Assembly: GCF_006540305.1 (NCBI RefSeq)
Contig: NZ_BJOR01000001.1
Span: forward strand, 4,960,001 to 5,024,000
DNA from: Streptomyces sp. 6-11-2
GTDB taxonomy: Bacteria > Actinomycetota > Actinomycetes > Streptomycetales > Streptomycetaceae
Reading direction: 5' to 3'
Length of the DNA: 64,000 bases
In this document: positions 1,899 to 59,286 of the stretch, in pieces
Layout: each line of letters begins with the position of its first letter
Position numbering within the stretch: position 1 is the stretch's first letter
Position numbers and translations under genes: made by a program
The notes under the pieces: model-generated
What the model saw: the letters and a program-made list of their open reading frames with translations, nothing else
The model's database searches: none
What the model was told of the DNA's origin: nothing

Positions 1899-2387
1899 TC
1901 ACAGCCACAGCTCCAGCAACGGGTCGGGCTTGGGCCGGAAGCCGAGGGAGGTGTACAGCGGTGCCCCCTCGGTGGACGTGGTGAGCTGTACCCGGCCGGC
2001 ACCGCGCTCGCGGAACCAGTCCAGCAGCGTCTCCATGCACGCGCGCGCGTACCCGCGACGGCGGGCGTCCGGATCCGTCGCGACGCTGAAGACGTAACCG
2101 ACCGAGCCTCCCGGATGGCCCGCCCGGCCGATCCGGTAGTCGATCGTGCCCGCCACCAGCGCGGCCAGCGCCCCCGGTCGTTCCGGATGGTCCACGACAT
2201 ACGCCGCGAAGTCCCCGTCCGGGTCCGCCAGCTTCGCGCGCAGGGTGGGCAGTGACTCCGCGTGCCAGTCGGTGGAAGGATCGGTGCCGTGCACCGAGTC
2301 GATCATCACCTGGCGCAGTCGCAGCACTTCCGCGGCGTCCTCGGGCTCAGCACGTCGTACGAGACTCATGTCCGGCACGCTAGTCAC
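1899..2387 (-). CDS. GNAT family N-acetyltransferase
   Basis: A 162-aa acetyltransferase (156 aa if the internal ATG at 2369, MSLVRRAEPED, is used, which fits the family start better). Acetyl-CoA motif A is VFSVATDPDARRRGYARACM (about residues 99-118), and the C-terminal part TSTEGAPLYTSLGF is the usual motif B. It heads a probable operon with the serine hydrolase and the next GNAT gene. Upstream it is divergent from a MerR gene, sharing an intergenic region of about 87 bp that holds the MerR palindrome. The substrate is unknown. Confidence 0.85.
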   Translation of the reverse strand: MTSVPDMSLVRRAEPEDAAEVLRLRQVMIDSVHGTDPSTDWHAESLPTLRAKLADPDGDFAAYVVDHPERPGALAALVAGTIDYRIGRAGHPGGSVGYVFSVATDPDARRRGYARACMETLLDWFRERGAGRVQLTTSTEGAPLYTSLGFRPKPDPLLELWL

Positions 2388-2437
2388 CGCGCCCGCCCCG
2401 CGTCGCGCGCATTTCTCGCCGCCCTGCCGGGTTCCGC

Positions 2438-2474
2438 TTGCTTGGAGTGCACTCCAAGGTCATAGCGTGGGGCC
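2438..2474 (+). promoter_or_regulatory. MerR-type promoter/operator with 19-bp spacer
   Basis: A perfect 18-bp palindrome, CTTGGAGTGCACTCCAAG, occupies 2441-2458. A -35-like TTGCTT (2438-2443) and a -10-like TAGCGT (2463-2468) flank it at a 19-bp spacing, the overlong spacer that MerR regulators correct by DNA distortion. The predicted start of transcription falls at or next to the ATG at 2475, so the merR mRNA would be leaderless; there is no Shine-Dalgarno sequence before the ATG. Confidence 0.75.
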
Positions 2475-2948
2475 ATGACGGTGACGCAGACCACGGCCGT
2501 GACCATCGAGGAGACCGAGGAAGCCCCCACCGGCGCCGACCTCTGCTCCGCCCCACCCCGGCGGCACCCGCGCCCCGACGGGCAGGACGGCTACACGATC
2601 AGCGAGGTCGTCGCCTTCACCGGGCTGACGGCCCACACCCTGCGCTGGTACGAGCGGATCGGCCTGATGCCCCACGTCGACCGCTCGCACACGGGCCAGC
2701 GCCGGTACACCAACCGCGACCTCGACTGGCTCGACCTGGTCGGCAAGCTCCGGCTGACCGGGATGCCGGTCGCCGACATGGTCCGGTACGCGGAGCTGGT
2801 GCGTGCGGGCGAGGGCACCTACGGCGACCGGCACGCGCTGCTGGAGGCGACCCGCCGGGACGTCCTGGCCCGGATCGCCGAACTGCGGGACACGCTCGCG
2901 GTACTGGACCGCAAGATCAGTTTCTACGCGGACGCCGGACGCCGTTGA
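2475..2948 (+). CDS. MerR family transcriptional regulator
   Basis: A 157-aa regulator. After an unstructured 38-residue N-terminus comes the MerR winged helix-turn-helix (YTISEVVAFTGLTAHTLRWYERIGLM, residues 40-65, then RRYTNRDLDWLDLVGKLR), and the C-terminus is a dimerisation coiled coil (LEATRRDVLARIAELRDTLAVLDRKISFY). There are no cysteines in the effector region, so this is not a mercury or SoxR-type sensor; it resembles the NmlR/AdhR group linked to aldehyde stress. An autoregulatory palindrome sits immediately upstream. The aldo/keto reductase gene 82 bp downstream is the likely target, as is common for this group. Confidence 0.9.
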   Translation: MTVTQTTAVTIEETEEAPTGADLCSAPPRRHPRPDGQDGYTISEVVAFTGLTAHTLRWYERIGLMPHVDRSHTGQRRYTNRDLDWLDLVGKLRLTGMPVADMVRYAELVRAGEGTYGDRHALLEATRRDVLARIAELRDTLAVLDRKISFYADAGRR

Positions 2949-3030
2949 ACCGCGGACGCCACTGAACCGCGGCGCCGCTCAGAAGCCGGACGCCACCGAA
3001 GAAGCGAACGTGAGAAGCGGAGACAACGCG

Positions 3031-4053
3031 ATGACCGAAAGCAGGATCCCGACCGTACGGCTGGGCGAGGACGGACCGGAGGTCGGCGTACAGGGCCTCG
3101 GATGCATGGGCATGAGCTTCGCCTACGGCCCCGCGGACGCGGGGGAGTCCCGCGCCACCCTGGAGCGGGCCCTGGAACTGGGCGTGACCCTCTACGACAC
3201 GGCGGACGCCTACGGGCAGGGCGAGAACGAGCGGTTCCTCGCCCCGTTCCTCAAGGCGCACCGGGACGAGGTCGTGATCGCCACCAAGTTCGCCCTGTCG
3301 ATCCCGCCGGACGAGCCGGCCAAGCGGATCATCCGCAATGACCCGCCCTACATACGGCAGGCCGTCGAGGCGAGCCTGGAGCGCCTGGACGTCGACGTGA
3401 TCGACCTCTACTACATGCACCGCCGTGACGTGAACGTCCCGATCGAGGAGAGCGTCGGGACCATGGCCGACCTGGTGCGCGAGGGCAAGGTGAAGCACCT
3501 GGGCCTGAGCGAAGTCACGGCCGACGAGCTGCGGGCCGCGCGGGACGTGCATCCGATCGCCGCCGTCCAGTCGGAGTGGTCGCTGTTCAGCCGTGACATC
3601 GAGACGCACGTGGTGCCCGCGGCACGCGACCTCGGCGTGGCGCTGGTGCCGTACTCGCCGCTCGGGCGGGGCTTTCTGACCGGCGGGTTCGTCGACGCCG
3701 CGAAGGAGCTGACCGGCGACGACTTCCGCCGCACCATGCCCCGCTTCCAGGGGGAGAACGCGGTGGCCAACGCCGCCCTGCTGGAGCCGATCCGCACGGT
3801 CGCGAAGGCCCACGGAGCCTCGCTCGCGCAGATCGCCCTGGCCTGGGTGCAGCAGCGGTCGTCCGTGCACGGCCTCCCGGTCGTCCAGATCCCCGGCACC
3901 CGCAGGCCGAGCCGGGTGGAGGAGAACGTGGCGGCGACGCGGATCGTGCTGACCGGGGAGGAGCTGGCACTGCTGGAGCCGATCGCCGCGCAGGTGTCGG
4001 GCGCGCGGTACGCCGACATGTCGTTCACGTCGCGGGGCCGGGAACAGCGGTGA
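3031..4053 (+). CDS. Aldo/keto reductase
   Basis: A 340-aa NADPH-dependent reductase of the AKR superfamily. The catalytic tetrad is present: Asp56 (YDTADAYG), Tyr61, Lys86 (ATKFAL) and His130 (YYMHRRD). The C-terminal cofactor loop VVQIPGTRRPSRVEEN is also intact, and the length is normal. The ATG at 3031 follows GGAGAC at a good distance. It lies in tandem with merR, so its transcription is probably controlled by the MerR palindrome at 2441. Aldehydes or other electrophilic carbonyls are plausible substrates, by analogy with MerR-linked AKRs. Confidence 0.92.
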   Translation: MTESRIPTVRLGEDGPEVGVQGLGCMGMSFAYGPADAGESRATLERALELGVTLYDTADAYGQGENERFLAPFLKAHRDEVVIATKFALSIPPDEPAKRIIRNDPPYIRQAVEASLERLDVDVIDLYYMHRRDVNVPIEESVGTMADLVREGKVKHLGLSEVTADELRAARDVHPIAAVQSEWSLFSRDIETHVVPAARDLGVALVPYSPLGRGFLTGGFVDAAKELTGDDFRRTMPRFQGENAVANAALLEPIRTVAKAHGASLAQIALAWVQQRSSVHGLPVVQIPGTRRPSRVEENVAATRIVLTGEELALLEPIAAQVSGARYADMSFTSRGREQR

Positions 4054-52453: not shown

Positions 52454-53320
52454 TCACGGCGGCGGCACGTCGAAGGTGACCGGGGCCTCGAAGGCGGCCC
52501 GGCGGGTGGCCCGGCGCAGCGCCCGCAGCACGGCGTGGCCGAGGACGAGGGTCAGGACCACCGTGACGGCGGCTCGACCCAGGTCCCAGCCGAGCGAGGT
52601 GGCCAGGCAGTACGCCACGAACCGGGCCAGGTTGGCGGGGACGCCCGCGTGCGGGTCGAAGGCGATGGAGGAGGCGAGGGTGCCCATGAAGGGCCAGCCC
52701 GCGAGGTTCATGACGGTGCCGTAGGCGAAGGCGGCCAGGAAGCCGTAGAGCGCGAGCAGCAGCAGTTCCGCGCGGCCGCGCAGCCGCTCGGGGCCCGGCA
52801 GCAGACCCGCGCCCATGGTGAACCAGCCCATGGCCAGCATCTGGAACGGCATCCATGGCCCCACCCCGCCGGTGAGCAGCGCGGAGGCGAACATCGTCAC
52901 CGAGCCGAGGACGAACCCGAAGCCCGGCCCGAGCACCCGCCCGCTCAGCACCATCAGGAAGAACATGGGCTCGATGCCGGCCGTCCCGGCCCCGATCGGG
53001 CGCAGCGCGGCCCCGGTCGCGGCCAGCACACCGAGCATGGCGACGGCCTTCGGGCCGAGGCCGGACTCGGAGATCGTCGCGGTGACGACGGCGACGAGCA
53101 GGACGAGCAGGCCCGCGAACAGCCAGGGCGCGTCCTGCGCGTGCGCGCTGAGCGACGAGGCGGGCGGGGCGAGGAACGGCCAGCCGAACGCGGCCACGCC
53201 GACCGCGCTGACCAGGGCGAGCGCGGCGAGGGACCGGGGGCCGAGGTGGACGGCCCGCACCCGGGGGTGGGGTATCGCGCCGGCCCGGCTCCCCTTCTCC
53301 TCGGCAGGACGAGCCGTCAT
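52454..53320 (-). CDS. ECF transporter substrate-binding (S) component
   Basis: A 288-aa membrane protein with six or more TM helices, last gene of a five-gene overlapping operon. Hydrophobic helices with small-residue motifs (ATGAALRPIGAGTAGIEPMFFLMVLSGRVLGPGFGFVLGSVTMFASALLTGGVGPWMPFQMLAMGWFTMGAGLLPG) match the S components of energy-coupling-factor importers, the class that includes cobalamin-specific CbrT. The ATG overlaps the EcfA stop by 4 bp. The riboswitch at the head of the operon suggests cobalamin or a precursor as cargo; sequence alone does not prove it. Confidence 0.85.
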   Translation of the reverse strand: MTARPAEEKGSRAGAIPHPRVRAVHLGPRSLAALALVSAVGVAAFGWPFLAPPASSLSAHAQDAPWLFAGLLVLLVAVVTATISESGLGPKAVAMLGVLAATGAALRPIGAGTAGIEPMFFLMVLSGRVLGPGFGFVLGSVTMFASALLTGGVGPWMPFQMLAMGWFTMGAGLLPGPERLRGRAELLLLALYGFLAAFAYGTVMNLAGWPFMGTLASSIAFDPHAGVPANLARFVAYCLATSLGWDLGRAAVTVVLTLVLGHAVLRALRRATRRAAFEAPVTFDVPPP

Positions 53321-55014
53321 GCCAGCGCCTCGCGGACCTGGGCGGCGGTGAGCCACCGCTGCGGGGCCAGGATCTTGGTGACCTGCGGGGCGAAGGAGGG
53401 GGAGGACACCACCACTTCGGCCGTCGGACCGTCGGCGATCACCTCGCCCTCGGCGAGCAGCACGACCCGGTGGGCGAGTTCGGCGGTCAGTTCGACGTCG
53501 TGCGTGGCGAGCACGATGGCGTGCCCCTCGGCGGCGAGCGCGCGCAGCAGGGCGACCAGGCGGGTCTTGGCGCCGTAGTCGAGGCCGCGGGTCGGCTCGT
53601 CGAGCAGCAGCAGGGGCGGGCGGGCCGCGAGCACGACGGCGAGCGCGAGCGCGAGGCGCTGGCCCTCCGACAGGTCACGGGGGTGGGTGTCGTCGCCGAC
53701 GCCGGGCAGCAGCTCGCGGACCAGGTCCCGGCAGGTGCCGGGTGCGGCCTGCGCGTCCTGGTCGGCGGCCGCGCACTCGGCGGCGACCGTGTCGGCGTAC
53801 AGCAGGTCGCGCGGCTCCTGCGGGACGAGCCCGACCCGGCGCACCAGTTCGCGGGGCGTCGTGCGGTGCGGGACCGCGCCGCCCACCCGGACCCGCCCGG
53901 CGGACGGCTGGACCAGCCCGACGAGCGAGCCGAGCAGCGTGGACTTCCCGGCGCCGTTGCGGCCCATGAGGGCGACGGTCTCGCCGGGGGCGACGGACAG
54001 GTCGACGTTCCGCAGGGCCTGGACGCCGGCGCGCCGGACACCGAGGGAGTGGACCTCGGCCACGGGCGCGCCCGCCGGGACGGGCTCGGGGGCGGGGCCG
54101 CGGCGCAGCCGCCACCGGGATGCCGGACGGGGCGCCGGACGGGGCGCGGGGACCGGGAGTGCCGTGGCCGGTGCCGTCCCGGAGCGCACGGGCTCCCGTC
54201 CGTCCAGCCGTTGCCGCAGACCGGCGGCCCGGCGGCGGGCGTCCCGTACGGTCAGGGGCAGCGGGGACCAACCCGCCAGCCGGCCCAGGTCCACCACCGG
54301 CGGGTACACCGGGGAGACGGCCATGACGTCCGCCGGGGGCCCCAGCAGCGGGGCGGCGCCCGGGGCGGGCAGCAGGACGACCTGGTCGGCGTACTGGACG
54401 ACCCGTTCCAGGCGGTGTTCGGCCATGAGGACCGTCGTGCCGAGGTCGTGCACGAGCCGCTGGAGGACGGCGAGGACCTCCTCGGCGGCGGCCGGGTCGA
54501 GCGCCGAGGTCGGCTCGTCCAGGACGAGGACCTTCGGGTGCGGGGTGAGGACCGAGCCGATCGCGACCCGCTGCTGCTGGCCGCCGGACAGGGTGGCGAT
54601 GGGCCGGTCGCGCAGGTCGGCCAGGCCCAGCAGGTCCAGGGTCTCCTCCACGCGCCGCCGCATCACGTCCGGGGCCAGGCCCAGCGACTCCATGCCGTAG
54701 GCGAGTTCGTCCTCCACGGTGTCCGTGACGAAGTGCGACAGCGGATCCTGGCCGACGGTGCCGACGACGTCGGCGAGTTCACGCGGCTTGTGGGTGCGGG
54801 TGTCCCGGCCGGCCACGGTGACCCGGCCGCGCAGGGTGCCGCCGGTGAAGTGCGGCACCAGCCCGCTGACCGCGCCGAGCACGGTGGACTTGCCGACGCC
54901 GGACGGCCCGACGAGCAGGACGAGTTCACCCTCGGGCACCTCGAAGTCGACGCCGTGGACGGTGGGTTCCACCGCTCCGTCGTAGGTGACGGAGACATCC
55001 TCGAAGCGGATCAC
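53317..55014 (-). CDS. ECF transporter ATPase, fused double EcfA
   Basis: A 565-aa protein with two complete ABC ATPase domains in tandem, equivalent to EcfA1 plus EcfA2. The first has Walker A GPSGVGKST, signature LSGGQQQR and Walker B VLVLDEPTSALD with MAEHRLE. The second has GRNGAGKST, LSEGQRLALAL and LLLLDEPTRGLD with ATHDVE. A Pro/Arg/Ala linker of about 70 residues joins them. It drives import by the EcfT-EcfS pair. The GTG start overlaps the EcfT stop (GTGA), and its stop overlaps the EcfS start (ATGA). The long N-terminal extension of the open frame is spurious. Confidence 0.93.
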   Translation of the reverse strand: MIRFEDVSVTYDGAVEPTVHGVDFEVPEGELVLLVGPSGVGKSTVLGAVSGLVPHFTGGTLRGRVTVAGRDTRTHKPRELADVVGTVGQDPLSHFVTDTVEDELAYGMESLGLAPDVMRRRVEETLDLLGLADLRDRPIATLSGGQQQRVAIGSVLTPHPKVLVLDEPTSALDPAAAEEVLAVLQRLVHDLGTTVLMAEHRLERVVQYADQVVLLPAPGAAPLLGPPADVMAVSPVYPPVVDLGRLAGWSPLPLTVRDARRRAAGLRQRLDGREPVRSGTAPATALPVPAPRPAPRPASRWRLRRGPAPEPVPAGAPVAEVHSLGVRRAGVQALRNVDLSVAPGETVALMGRNGAGKSTLLGSLVGLVQPSAGRVRVGGAVPHRTTPRELVRRVGLVPQEPRDLLYADTVAAECAAADQDAQAAPGTCRDLVRELLPGVGDDTHPRDLSEGQRLALALAVVLAARPPLLLLDEPTRGLDYGAKTRLVALLRALAAEGHAIVLATHDVELTAELAHRVVLLAEGEVIADGPTAEVVVSSPSFAPQVTKILAPQRWLTAAQVREALA

Positions 55015-56147
55015 GACGGCTCCTTGGGGGCGGGACTGGCGGGTACGGCGAACGCGGGGGCCAGGCCGAGGAGTACGGCGGCGGCGGGCCACAGGGGAAG
55101 AGTGGGCGGGACGAGCGGGACCACGCCCGGGTGCAGGGCCTGGGGATCGCGGGCGGCGGCGAGCGCCAGCAGGGCCGCGACCAGCATGCCCGACCCGGCG
55201 ACCAGACAGGAGCGGAGGTTCCAGGAGTCCGGTCGGTAGCGGGTGCGCGGGGAGCGGTGCCCGCCGAGCCACAGTCCGGCCAGGGCGGCGGCGACCCCGG
55301 CGAGCAGCACCGGCAGGCCGTAGGTGCCGCCCTCGGCGGTGAGCAGCCCGTACGTCCCGGCGCAGACGCCCAGCAGACCGCCGAGCGTGAGCACGGCGGT
55401 GGTCCGGCGGACGGCGGGCGCGACCTCGGCGGTACGGCCGTAGCCGCGGGCGTCCATCGCGGCGGCGAGGGCGACGGAACGCTCCAGCGCGCCCTCCAGG
55501 ACCGGCAGTCCGACCTGCACCAGGCCGCGGACACCCCGGTCGGGGCGGCCCCGCAGCCGGCGGGCGGCCCGCAGGCGACGCCCGTCGGCGACCAGGTGCG
55601 GGGCGAAGGTGAGCGCGACGACGACGGCGACCCCGGTCTCGTACAGGGCGCCGGGCAGGGACTTCAGCAGCCGGGCGGGCGCGGCGAGGGCGTTCGCGGC
55701 GCCGACGCAGACCAGCAGCGTGGCCAGCTTCAGCCCGTCGTACAGGGCGAAGACGACCGCCTCGGCCGTGACCCGGCCGCCCAGGCGGATGCCCTGCGCC
55801 CAGTGCGGCAGGGGGACTTCGGGAAGGGAGACGATCACGTGCGAGCCGGGAATGGGCGAGCCGAGCACGACGGCGAAGACGAGGCGGATGACGAGGACGG
55901 CGAGGGCGAGCCGGACGAAGGCGGTGTAGGACCGGGCGGACGGCGTGTTGGGGCGGCAGCTCACCACGACGTAGCCGGAGACCGCCAGCAGCAGGCCGAG
56001 CAGCAGGGGATTGGTGGTGCGGGTGGCCGCGGTGCCCAGGGCCAGCGCCCACAGCCACCAGGCGCCCGCGTGGACACCGGCGGAGCCGCGGGCGGGTGCG
56101 CCGCCGGAGCGGCCCGCCCGCCCGCGGTCCCGCACGGCGTCACGCAT
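55011..56147 (-). CDS. ECF transporter transmembrane component EcfT
   Basis: A 378-aa membrane protein. The CbiQ/EcfT features are present: hydrophobic N-terminal helices (WWLWALALGTAATRTTNPLLLGLLLAVSGYVVVS), the coupling-helix motif ALAAAMDARGYGR with its Ala-Arg-Gly core, and extra C-terminal TM helices. It couples EcfA hydrolysis to toppling of EcfS. The first motif, with LLKSLP and ALERSVALAAAMDARG, is intact. ATG 56147 overlaps the end of the SCO2322-type gene by 8 bp. Confidence 0.92.
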   Translation of the reverse strand: MRDAVRDRGRAGRSGGAPARGSAGVHAGAWWLWALALGTAATRTTNPLLLGLLLAVSGYVVVSCRPNTPSARSYTAFVRLALAVLVIRLVFAVVLGSPIPGSHVIVSLPEVPLPHWAQGIRLGGRVTAEAVVFALYDGLKLATLLVCVGAANALAAPARLLKSLPGALYETGVAVVVALTFAPHLVADGRRLRAARRLRGRPDRGVRGLVQVGLPVLEGALERSVALAAAMDARGYGRTAEVAPAVRRTTAVLTLGGLLGVCAGTYGLLTAEGGTYGLPVLLAGVAAALAGLWLGGHRSPRTRYRPDSWNLRSCLVAGSGMLVAALLALAAARDPQALHPGVVPLVPPTLPLWPAAAVLLGLAPAFAVPASPAPKEPS

Positions 56148-56784
56148 CCCTGCGCCGCCGCGCCTGCCAGACCGCCGCCGCGCCCAGTACGACCACCGCG
56201 GCACCACCGGCGAGGAGACCCACCGAGGGGCCCTCCTCGCGCGGCTCGTCCGCGGCGGGCTGCTCGCTCCCGCCCGCCGTCACCTGCTCGCCGCAGCCCT
56301 TCCGCGGATAGCCGGAGATCGCGCACAGCAGGGCGTTGGCGTCGTACCGCAGCGGTTTCGCGACGGCCGCCAGGGCCTCGGCCGTGGTCGCGTCGGACGG
56401 CACCCGGGCGCACGCCGTGCGCGGCGCCGGCGGGGTCTCGCCGGCCGGGGCGTCCGCCTGGACGCCGAAGTCGAGGACGAGCGCCACCCGCTTGCTGCCC
56501 TTCTCGGCGGGCGTCTTCGCGCAGATGGCCTCGAAGTCGGCCGTCCCGCGCGGCTTGCTCGCGTCCTGGGAGTCCTCACTCACCGCGAAGCGGAGGCCCT
56601 GGACGTCGCCGTCGGAGGGACGCGCGGTCGACGGGCCCTCGGTGGCGTACGTCCACTTCCCGCCGTCGCGGTCCCAGAAGGACCAGTACCGGTAGCCGGT
56701 GGCCTGCGCCTGACCGGCACCGGCCACCAGCAGGAGCGCGGCCGCGAGCAGCGGTGCGCACAGCGCCAGGAGCCGGCGGGTCAC
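56140..56784 (-). CDS. SCO2322-family exported membrane-anchored protein
   Basis: A 214-aa protein with signal peptide (RRLLALCAPLLAAALLLVAGAGQAQA), an extracellular beta-rich domain beginning GYRYWSFWDRDGGKWTYATEGPSTARPSDGDVQGLRFAVS, a Cys-paired region (CAKTP..CARVPS..CAISGYPRKGC), and a C-terminal TM anchor (VGLLAGGAAVVVLGAAAVWQARRRR). The YWSFWD...GKW.Y...GP....P.DGDV.G pattern recalls the beta domain of transcobalamin (DUF4430-like), but this is my inference. Its GTG overlaps the stop of the alpha/alpha-barrel gene by 4 bp and its end overlaps ecfT, so the three are tightly co-expressed. Confidence 0.85.
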   Translation of the reverse strand: MTRRLLALCAPLLAAALLLVAGAGQAQATGYRYWSFWDRDGGKWTYATEGPSTARPSDGDVQGLRFAVSEDSQDASKPRGTADFEAICAKTPAEKGSKRVALVLDFGVQADAPAGETPPAPRTACARVPSDATTAEALAAVAKPLRYDANALLCAISGYPRKGCGEQVTAGGSEQPAADEPREEGPSVGLLAGGAAVVVLGAAAVWQARRRRDA

Positions 56785-57974
56785 GACTGGCCCTGCTTCT
56801 TCCGGCCGCTCAGCAGGAACCCGATGCCGACGCCCGCGACGAGGAAGACGCCGACGGTCCACCAGACGCCGAAGGGGGAGTCGCTCTTCGCGGCCTGCGG
56901 GGCCGGTCCGGTCGCGTTGAGCCGCTCGACCAGGTCGACACCGCCGAAGTCACGCGGGTCGGCGCCGGCCGCGCGGGCCGCGAAGACGAGCTGGGCGTAG
57001 GCGGCGGGACCGCTCTGCTTGGCCCATGCCTCGGAGTTCTTCTCCAGCCACTTCAGCGGCTTCTGCGCCTGCGCGGGCCCGCTCTGCGCGGCCAGGGCGA
57101 CGACCGTGTCGGCGGTGTTGCCGAAGTCGGGCTGGTCGGTGGAACCGGGGAGGGAGGAGGTGAGGTGACCGTCCTTGGCGACGGCCTGCGCGAGGTACGA
57201 GGCGCCGTTGGCCGCGGCCCGGTCCGGGCTGGGCTTGCCCGAGTCCTCGCAACGGGACTCGGCGCCCTTGGCGTTGCCCTTGGGGGCCATGCCCTGCCCG
57301 AGCGCGGCGACGACGGCGGCCGCCGTGGCGTCCGCGTTGGCGGCGAGCTCGCCCTTCTTGTCCGGCTGGTAGGCGAAGGCGCCGGCCCCGTCGCCGGAGC
57401 ACGGCAGGGCGAAGGTCAGCAGGGCGTCGTAGGGGGACTTGCCGTCCTTGACCACACTCTCCGGCTTCTGCCCGACGGCGGCGAGCGCGCCGATCACGAC
57501 CGAGGTCGAGTTGGTGTCGCTGGGCCCGCCGGGCGTGTACCCCCAGCCGCCGTCCTTGTTCTGCACGGACTTCAGCCAGGACACCGCCTTGCCGGTGACC
57601 GTGTCGTGGCCGCCGAGCGCGGCGAGGGCCTGCACGGCGGCGGCGGTGCTGTTGGTGTCGACCATCAGCTTGGCGTCGCAGGCCTTGCCCGGCTCGGCGC
57701 GGAAGGGCGCGAAGGAGCCGTCGGCGCACTGCTGTCCGGTCAGCCAGTCCACGGCCTTGGCGGCGGGCCGCACCTCCACGGTGTGCTGCGCGAGCAGCGC
57801 CAGGGACTGGCGCCAGACGCCGTCGTACTGGGGGTCGGTCGTGCCGTAGAGCCCGGCCGGAAGAGCCGGCGACGACGGGGACGGGCCGGCGGACGTGTCT
57901 GCGACGGCGGGGGCCGCGCTGCCGATCACGGAGACGGCGGCGGCCAGGGCCGCGGCGCTGCGGCGGAAGTTCAT
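56781..57974 (-). CDS. Exported alpha/alpha-toroid (prenyltransferase/squalene-oxidase repeat) protein, transcobalamin-like
   Basis: A 397-aa protein with signal peptide (MNFRRSAAALAAAVSVIGSAAPAVA), an extracellular repeat domain and a C-terminal TM anchor (WWTVGVFLVAGVGIGFLLSGRKK). The repeats have the terpenoid-cyclase-like toroid signature: AVDWLTGQQCADGSF..., DTNSTAAAVQALAAL, AVSWLKSVQNKDGGWGYTPGG..., DTNSTSVVIGALAAVG, NADATAAAVVAALGQG, and YLAQAVAKDGHL...GNTADTVVALAA. It lacks the DxDD of a real cyclase. The same fold forms the alpha domain of transcobalamin and intrinsic factor. It is the first gene after a cobalamin riboswitch. ATG 57974; the longer frame runs into the riboswitch. Confidence 0.85.
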   Translation of the reverse strand: MNFRRSAAALAAAVSVIGSAAPAVADTSAGPSPSSPALPAGLYGTTDPQYDGVWRQSLALLAQHTVEVRPAAKAVDWLTGQQCADGSFAPFRAEPGKACDAKLMVDTNSTAAAVQALAALGGHDTVTGKAVSWLKSVQNKDGGWGYTPGGPSDTNSTSVVIGALAAVGQKPESVVKDGKSPYDALLTFALPCSGDGAGAFAYQPDKKGELAANADATAAAVVAALGQGMAPKGNAKGAESRCEDSGKPSPDRAAANGASYLAQAVAKDGHLTSSLPGSTDQPDFGNTADTVVALAAQSGPAQAQKPLKWLEKNSEAWAKQSGPAAYAQLVFAARAAGADPRDFGGVDLVERLNATGPAPQAAKSDSPFGVWWTVGVFLVAGVGIGFLLSGRKKQGQS

Positions 57975-58085
57975 GATCGGCGGGTGCCTCTCCCTGCGGG
58001 GAGCCGGACAGCACGGGACACCCCGGCGGCTCGGCTCCGTATACCTCGACGGTGCGATGCGCCGGCGGACTGCCGACACGCATGA

Positions 58086-58216
58086 GCCGGTCACGTCCCG
58101 TCCCGGGCATTCCGGCTCGCCGCCCTCGCGGGACGGCTCACGGCTGCGGGTCAGCGCCGGATTTCCACCGGCTTCCCCCCGAACGGGTGTGATGACGACC
58201 CGGTCACTCTACCGGC
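58086..58216 (-). ncRNA. Cobalamin riboswitch
   Basis: On the minus strand the core GGGGAAGCCGGTGGAAATCC, then GGCGCTGACCCGCAGCCGTGA, is the conserved J3/4-P4-P5-J6/3 block of B12 riboswitches. GAGCCGGAATGCCCGG further on is a B12-box variant. GCCGGT (58216-58211) and ACCGGC (58091-58086) close P1. The leader continues 111 nt to the start codon and contains CTCCC/GGGAG (57990-58003), which would pair away the purine-rich ribosome binding site. It is expected to switch the ECF operon off when cobalamin is plentiful. Confidence 0.88.
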
Positions 58217-58378: not shown

Positions 58379-58506
58379 CGAGACGCTACGGCATCCGCTG
58401 GGGCCGACGTCGACGGTCGGGCTGAGAGGCCGGAAGGTAGCAGTCGGACCTGAAGGCGACCCCCATTACCTGATCCGGGTAATACCGGCGAAGGGAACCC
58501 GTCTCG
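58379..58506 (+). ncRNA. TPP riboswitch without an evident downstream gene
   Basis: CTGAGA (58422-58427) and ACCTGATCCGGGTAATACCG through GCGAAGGGA (58468-58496) are the invariant blocks of the thiamine-pyrophosphate (THI-box) aptamer. CGAGACG (58379-58385) and CGTCTCG (58500-58506) form P1, and CCGAC/GTCGG a P3-like stem. It is on the plus strand. The next 800 bp hold only the minus-strand tetR gene, whose stop is 6 bp away, so no thiamine gene follows. Sequence quality is consistent with a functional aptamer. Confidence 0.88.
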
Positions 58507-58512
58507 TAGGTC

Positions 58513-59136
58513 CTATTCGTGCGCCACGGCGGGCATGGTCAGGTCGATCAGACGGCACGCCGTCCCTATGTCGGCCTTCGCCTGGGCGAGGGAGGCACGG
58601 CCCGAGAGCCAGGTGATCAGGGCCGAGAGCCAGGTGTGCTCGATCACGCGGACCACGGAGAGCTGCTCGGCGGTGGGCTCCTCCAGGCCCATGGCGTCCA
58701 GGATGATCGCGGTGGTCTGGCGGGAGACCTGGTCGACCTCCGGGCTCACGCTGCGGTCCGCGAAGGTCAGCGCGCGGACCATCGCGTCCGCGAGGTGGGG
58801 GTCGCGCTGGAGGGCGCCGAAGGCGCGCATCAGGGTCTCCGCCACCCGCTCGGCGGCGCTCTCGCCGGCCGGCGGGTTCTTGCGCAGCGTGCCGTGCAGG
58901 CGCTCCAACTGGTCCTGCATCGTGGCGACGAGCAGGTGCACCTTGGACGGGAAGTACCGGTAGAGCGTGCCCAGCGCCACCTGCGAGGACTCCGCGACCT
59001 CCCGCATCTGCACGGCGTCGAAGCCGCCCCGGGCGGCCAGTTGCGCGCTCGCGCGCAGGATGCGGCGGCGACGGGCCTCCTGCCGCTCGGTGAGAGGCGG
59101 TGAGGCCGGCCGGGAGGTACTGGCTCGCGCAGGCAT
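58513..59136 (-). CDS. KstR-like TetR family regulator
   Basis: A 207-aa repressor. The HTH (RRRRILRASAQLAARGGFDAVQMREVAESSQVALGTLYRYFPSKVHLLVATMQDQLERL, residues 20-77) is closely similar to the KstR group of actinobacteria, which control sterol and lipid genes and bind acyl-CoA-type ligands. ATG 59136 (MPARASTSRP) is taken as start; 49 more codons are open upstream but look non-coding. The gene is divergent from the GT4 operon, and a KstR-type box lies in the shared region. The window shows no other steroid genes, so the ligand may differ. Confidence 0.88.
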   Translation of the reverse strand: MPARASTSRPASPPLTERQEARRRRILRASAQLAARGGFDAVQMREVAESSQVALGTLYRYFPSKVHLLVATMQDQLERLHGTLRKNPPAGESAAERVAETLMRAFGALQRDPHLADAMVRALTFADRSVSPEVDQVSRQTTAIILDAMGLEEPTAEQLSVVRVIEHTWLSALITWLSGRASLAQAKADIGTACRLIDLTMPAVAHE

Positions 59137-59286
59137 GGATCCCGTTCCGTGACAGTCGGTGAGGCAGAGGCCGGCAGGGGGACCGGACCGCGGGCGGTGG
59201 CGCGGGCCGTGGTGCGAATCACCCGATCCGCTGCTCACAGCGTGGCTACCTGCCGGTAGATTCGGAGCCTCCTGAACGATCAAGTC

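Follow-up and report, generated by a model that had tools for sequence, protein, structure and literature searches.

In mammals, transcobalamin, haptocorrin and intrinsic factor carry vitamin B12 (cobalamin) as one soluble, unpermuted chain, composed of a toroid and a small beta domain. Bacterial surface proteins with a toroid and a transcobalamin-type soluble-ligand-binding beta-grasp (SLBB) domain, encoded together with CbiO/CbiQ genes, form a clade from Low-GC Gram-positives, planctomycetes and euryarchaea, for which B12 scavenging was proposed (Burroughs et al., 2007, PMC1796856; for all sources given here by PMC number the statements refer to the available extracts). ECF-CbrT is a B12 importer of the energy-coupling factor (ECF) type (Santos et al., 2018, PMC5997447), and a riboswitch-preceded ECF module is the predicted cobalamin transporter of the B12-auxotrophic acI actinobacteria (Kang et al., 2017, PMC5301498). 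The subject of the present analysis is an operon of Streptomyces sp. 6-11-2 located in a stretch of 64,000 nucleotides (contig NZ_BJOR01000001.1, positions 4,960,001–5,024,000; hereafter the window), in which a cobalamin riboswitch precedes the genes of two exported proteins, alpha (SCO2321 family) and beta (SCO2322 family), and of an ECF module. It is quite probably an ECF importer for cobalamin or another corrinoid with a surface receptor made of a permuted beta-grasp and a permuted toroid. It resembles the system of Burroughs et al. in having toroid and beta-grasp surface proteins encoded with an ECF-type ATPase and CbiQ, but it is actinobacterial, has no DUF4430 match, and its two chains are encoded separately and are both circularly permuted; the same permuted order and the presence of two anchored chains distinguish it from the mammalian carriers. 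The general idea of a B12 clamp, put forward in the original prediction (a reading of the window sequence alone), had been in print for other bacteria since 2007; the SCO2321 and SCO2322 families are not named in the available parts of PMC1796856 and PMC5301498.

The window genome has a size of 8.73 Mb, and the window beta is 97% identical to Streptomyces-named proteins. The operon is read on the minus strand and includes the following features (window coordinates; the start codons of the five genes were picked by the analyst):

58105–58178, minus strand: cobalamin riboswitch aptamer, compact form, model positions 45–169 (RF00174, 41.0 bits)
57975–58104, minus strand: leader from the aptamer to the alpha start, read by eye from the leader alignment
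56781–57974, minus strand: alpha, SCO2321 family, 397 amino acids, exported alpha/alpha-toroid, permuted (NF053823, 602 bits, cut-off 300)
56140–56784, minus strand: beta, SCO2322 family, 214 amino acids, exported, with a C-terminal anchor, permuted (NF040672, 238 bits, cut-off 85)
55011–56147, minus strand: EcfT, transmembrane coupling subunit, CbiQ family (PF02361, 27.7 bits, cut-off 25)
53317–55014, minus strand: EcfA-EcfA', double ATPase in a single chain (PF00005/ABC_tran, two stretches)
52454–53320, minus strand: EcfS, substrate-specificity subunit (PF12822, 32.3 bits, cut-off 30.7)

The original prediction had described a cobalamin riboswitch followed by five minus-strand genes with overlaps of 4–8 bp, and both points were borne out: the RF00174 match exceeded its gathering score (31.5 bits) and fell inside the span 58086–58216 named for the riboswitch, while the junctions overlapped by 4 bp (GTGA), 8 bp (ATGCGTGA), 4 bp (GTGA) and 4 bp (ATGA). 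Its assignment of the operon as a riboswitch-controlled ECF importer also gained support, since a CbiQ-like T component, two ATPase domains and a PF12822-type S component were present in one operon, all over the Pfam cut-offs, as in ECF transporters. EcfA exceeded the cut-off of the cbiO model TIGR01166 and remained below those of two ECF ATPase equivalog models. EcfS was 40–77% identical to 18 other EcfS sequences and matched only PF12822 in a Pfam search at E up to 1, with no CbiM-type S component of the cobalt ECF transporter CbiMNQO recognized; in a sequence search against PDB chains it had no significant match, which sets it apart from ECF-CbrT, with which the operon would share the function of an ECF-type B12 importer. 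Both exported proteins passed the curated NCBIfam cut-offs of their families and possess one N-terminal and one C-terminal hydrophobic segment each, and beta additionally matched GPS-CTERM (32.9 bits, cut-off 28). Alpha exceeded the cut-offs of the Pfam families SQHop_cyclase_C and Prenyltrans, but a function as a membrane-acting enzyme of the terpene cyclase/prenyltransferase type, with a purely regulatory link to the ECF genes, is very improbable: of 35 alpha sequences, just seven contained DxDD, the acid motif of class II cyclases, and one contained DxDDT, alpha has a signal-like segment, it is fused with beta in several proteins, and it is absent beside many betas.

It is the fused proteins that connect the exported pair with the B12 carriers. 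Alpha comes first in the one-chain relatives P0241 and P0253 and beta in P0260 (read by eye), and three fusion genes are located within riboswitch-ECF operons (L041, L042 and L052). The AlphaFold2 (AF2) model of P0253, with a predicted local distance difference test score (pLDDT) of 89.2, consists of a 12-helix toroid followed by a b-b-a-[hairpin]-b-b-b domain. Its Foldseek ranks 1–11 were occupied by matches to cell-wall-binding domains and ranks 12–20 by transcobalamin (2bb6, E 3.7e-10) and haptocorrin (4kki, E 3.0e-8), and the isolated transcobalamin beta domain 5np4 was matched with a target-normalized template modelling score (TMt) of 0.67, a root-mean-square deviation of 3.6 and E 3.2e-3. 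Among the 50 VIA matches listed, only intrinsic factor/transcobalamin structures (2pmv, 3kq4, 7qbf and 8ixt) spanned both the toroid and the beta domain of the fusion, from residues 37–40 to 448, while the cyclases stopped at residue 322. Through these one-chain relatives the modelled fold supports the view that the exported pair corresponds to the two halves of transcobalamin, toroid and beta-grasp. The AF2 model of the window beta itself, built from 70 close-homologue rows, was poor (pLDDT 56.9, without a PDB match below E 2) and is not used as fold evidence; the b-b-a-[hairpin]-b-b-b fold was seen in P0253, to which the window beta is tied by profile alignment (hhalign) after exchange of its halves. 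Canonical beta domains gave nothing significant in a sequence search against PDB chains, and Pfam searches with 32 of them produced no family common to more than one member, although a protein database listing assigns PF28005 to SCO2322 proteins and to the Euzebya fusion. DUF4430 (PF14478) was listed neither for the window beta (E up to 1) nor among the families of the 32 canonical beta domains, and a search of the window genome with it found nothing, two of 14 control genomes being positive.

The two window chains differ from these relatives in the order of their blocks. The canonical beta of the distant relatives runs [VxVVVDFG..C..helix..VCxIxGxP..C][YWSYW..W.Y..G..DGDxEGWRF], while the second block leads in SCO2322: the window beta starts with the YRYWSFW..LRFA block and continues with the KRVALVLDFG..GYPRKGC block. 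Aligned unaltered, it produced two hhalign blocks, the order of which was swapped (scores of 78.4 and 57.4), while exchange of the halves resulted in one block of 99 columns with a score of 129.7 (E 2e-24), compared with at most 14.0 for 20 column shuffles. Hence, the standard strand order of the transcobalamin-type SLBB domains (S1-S2-helix first) is not that of the window beta, which is a permuted derivative. The SCO2322 model had served to detect the relatives in the first place, so that the homology to canonical beta does not constitute independent evidence; the altered order of the blocks does. A pattern of four cysteines, drawn up with the sequences already in view, fitted 26 of the 32 canonical beta domains and 18 of the 21 permuted ones.

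In alpha, the block PDRAAANGASYL..VERLNATG is the last one in the window protein and the first one in the canonical relatives. Unaltered profiles of canonical (23 rows) and Streptomyces (12 rows) alpha aligned with a score of 222.1 over 178 columns, the remaining block following in swapped order with 96.3; after the C-terminal block had been moved to the front, the score was 307.4 over 275 columns, and a rotation scan in steps of 20 columns peaked at 200–220. Secondary alignments with lower scores (up to 86) are due to the toroid repeats. A register shift of the toroid in place of a permutation was judged unlikely, since one rotation aligns the 275 columns as a single block and motifs of the DPRDFGGVDLV type keep their place. 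On these sequence grounds, the window alpha and beta are both circular permutants of the fusion-type arrangement. The transcobalamin-like alpha and beta clamps of the original prediction can thus be retained as toroid and beta-grasp halves on the basis of the fusion model, but the permutation of both had escaped it. A precedent for permutation of a beta-grasp, albeit in another branch of the fold, is the UFD of eukaryotic E1, whose first strand moved to the C-terminus (PMC1949818). An open-access literature search, a weak test for this reason, showed among the papers listed no paper on circular permutation of SCO2321/SCO2322 proteins and none naming SCO2322, while SCO2321 is named in a paper on a skin-penetrating peptide (PMC9237094).

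The permutations of the two proteins go together. Neighborhoods were read for 79 loci (L037–L076 and L097–L136 without L133, L076 being the window). The order of alpha could be called in 52 of them, with 26 canonical (L054 weakly) and 26 permuted, and the order of beta in 77, with 47 permuted. Permuted alpha was accompanied by permuted beta in 25 of 26 loci, and canonical alpha by canonical beta in 24 of 26 by script and in L041 and L053 by sequence reading, the best beta half-matches of the latter two lying in different copies; the loci are not independent, as the genus of the window supplies 15 of the 26 with permuted alpha. The exception, L075 of genome G370, has a permuted alpha (1929–3116) beside a canonical beta (3542–3967) and is possibly an intermediate or a case of independent permutation. 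Two genomes of the window's genus contained both types: G171, with one operon each (L056 and L057), and G592 (L126 and L127), in which the L127 alpha-beta pair had no ECF genes nearby. On a quick EcfS tree of 67 rows, the beta permutation needed five changes in comparison with a shuffled mean of 22.2; its starred branches force only one change, and a single origin is neither shown nor excluded.

The operon is conserved well outside Streptomyces. The SCO2322 model matched 54 of 396 genomes of a phylum sample at E 0.001 (13 over the cut-off) and 162 of 394 genomes of a class sample (135 over the cut-off), and the order riboswitch, alpha, beta, EcfT, EcfA, EcfS was found far beyond the genus, with many loci lacking alpha. 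A scan of named genomes, with 80 of 549 loci listed, included Streptomyces, Kitasatospora, Nocardioides, Terrabacter, Phytoactinopolyspora and others. Upstream of beta, within 4 kb and on the same strand, RF00174 matches (counted at E up to 0.001 per genome) were present at 46 of 56 loci from the phylum search (one row per gene, G322:C89 and G258:C109:82517-82699 excluded) and at 36 of 40 loci picked by the analyst from the class search, and missing at 10 and four, respectively. Such frequencies indicate that the association of riboswitch and operon is not due to chance; since the gathering score was reached by only a part of the upstream matches (25 of 46 and 14 of 36), their constant position bears much of the weight. 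The same association bears on the substrate: a heme ECF importer is on record (PMC7299338), and alpha and beta might likewise serve the uptake of heme or another tetrapyrrole instead of a corrinoid, but with a cobalamin riboswitch match as the regular neighbor and a fusion matching the B12 carriers this is barely credible.

In most loci beta ended with a hydrophobic segment and a basic tail, which were lacking in five small-genome loci (L097–L101). LPxTG-like alpha C-termini, read by eye in P0260 (LPFTG) and L056 (LPLTG) in this order or the reverse, suggest sortase anchoring in some lineages. At eight loci (L074, L113, L114, L115, L118, L120, L127 and L132), beta was found with no match to EcfT or EcfS in the fetched stretch, and alpha was present in six of the eight; such pairs may rely on an ECF module from another locus.

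Because alpha is absent from many operons, the two-piece clamp of the original prediction describes only one variant of the system. In genomes with permuted beta and no adjoining alpha, the canonical alpha profile found no alpha elsewhere in 16 of 16; the sole positive control, the alpha of G370, was recovered at 126 bits despite being permuted, and a more divergent alpha could therefore have been missed. Judged from this gene content, alpha is dispensable. Six small genomes of 1.3–1.6 Mb (G417, G432, G447, G471, G636 and G691) each had exactly one RF00174 match, located immediately ahead of beta; it exceeded the gathering score in three of them, and CobQ was below its cut-off in all six. Among the 40 beta-bearing genomes tested for CobQ (a 41st, G050, had no beta and was left out), it was over the cut-off in 16 and not in 24, four of the 24 being less than 90% complete. 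The six small genomes would represent the acI type, and their single riboswitch-beta match in the absence of CobQ over the cut-off agrees with the findings of Kang et al. (2017; PMC5301498), with the difference that a permuted beta, not mentioned in the available part of that paper, lies between the riboswitch and EcfT.

The window genome had five further RF00174 matches, one of them below the gathering score. They were followed by ribonucleotide reductase genes, by cbiB-cobQ, by CbtA (the sub-gathering match), by a NikA-like ATP-binding cassette system and by a small gene without assignment. The NikA-like locus (L218:646-3215), a riboswitch before a gene of a NikA-like substrate-binding protein and a permease gene, is possibly a cobalt or nickel importer. 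The presence of CobQ and CbiB beside another cobalamin riboswitch makes the window genome a probable B12 producer, and, together with the fact that riboswitch control would suit any B12-related substrate, this speaks for an importer of a precursor or component of B12 (cobalt, cobinamide, dimethylbenzimidazole), merely assisted by the surface proteins. Such a function is unlikely, however, given that beta is kept in the 24 of 40 genomes without CobQ over the cut-off, that CbtA, for cobalt, adjoins another, weaker riboswitch match, and that a toroid and beta-grasp clamp fits a large ligand; cobinamide is still a possible substrate. Synthesis and cobalt uptake thus have their own loci, and the studied operon was the only candidate for intact corrinoids among the riboswitch-linked loci, which were the ones read; no search was made for a BtuFCD system at other loci.

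An alignment of the window with eight leaders of the same genus showed a conserved aptamer core. In the leader, CCGGCUC is complementary to GAGCCGG of the aptamer 3' side (CCGGCTC in seven of nine aligned leaders, by eye), and CUCCCC precedes the Shine-Dalgarno-like GGGAGAGG (by eye), so that the leader may act as a translational switch through these two elements; this part of the interpretation is weakened by the leader RNA being no more stable than its shuffles (z 0.21). Further upstream on the same strand, the window contains a gene for a KstR-related TetR regulator (58513–59283; 200.7 bits, cut-off 280). Between it and the cobalamin riboswitch, a full-length, sub-threshold match to the thiamine pyrophosphate riboswitch RF00059 is located on the plus strand (58390–58513; 40.5 bits, gathering score 54.3, E 1.1e-6), which could be the remnant of a thiamine switch or an orphan one.

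Concerning the ligand, complex formation, hand-over, and the direction and mode of regulation, we infer the following. Scarcity of cellular corrinoid would leave the riboswitch open and the operon expressed; alpha and beta would be exported and kept at the membrane by their C-terminal anchors. The permuted beta-grasp of beta would bind the corrinoid and the permuted alpha6-alpha6 toroid would close over it, as in transcobalamin, with subsequent hand-over to EcfS and import driven by EcfT and the double ATPase. More tentatively, and with slightly more doubt than confidence, the pair can be regarded as a two-chain transcobalamin with halves permuted in step, perhaps for anchoring on the right face, which feeds a dedicated EcfS, and the permuted beta alone as its minimal form in streamlined auxotrophs.

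The operon is real and conserved, and although the broad B12 idea is already in print, the recurrence of the riboswitch-beta-ECF arrangement across the phylum, the two-domain fusion, the paired permutation and the dispensable alpha are new. A function is hereby proposed for families that have been named only after SCO2321 and SCO2322. The surprising part is not the B12 idea but the paired permutation, an unusual case of partner proteins rearranged together. To our knowledge, ECF importers are usually described as doing without a binding protein of their own; if the proposed function is true, they have one here, and it is related to the mammalian B12 carriers. For the small auxotrophic actinobacteria, this system would be the likely route of B12 entry.

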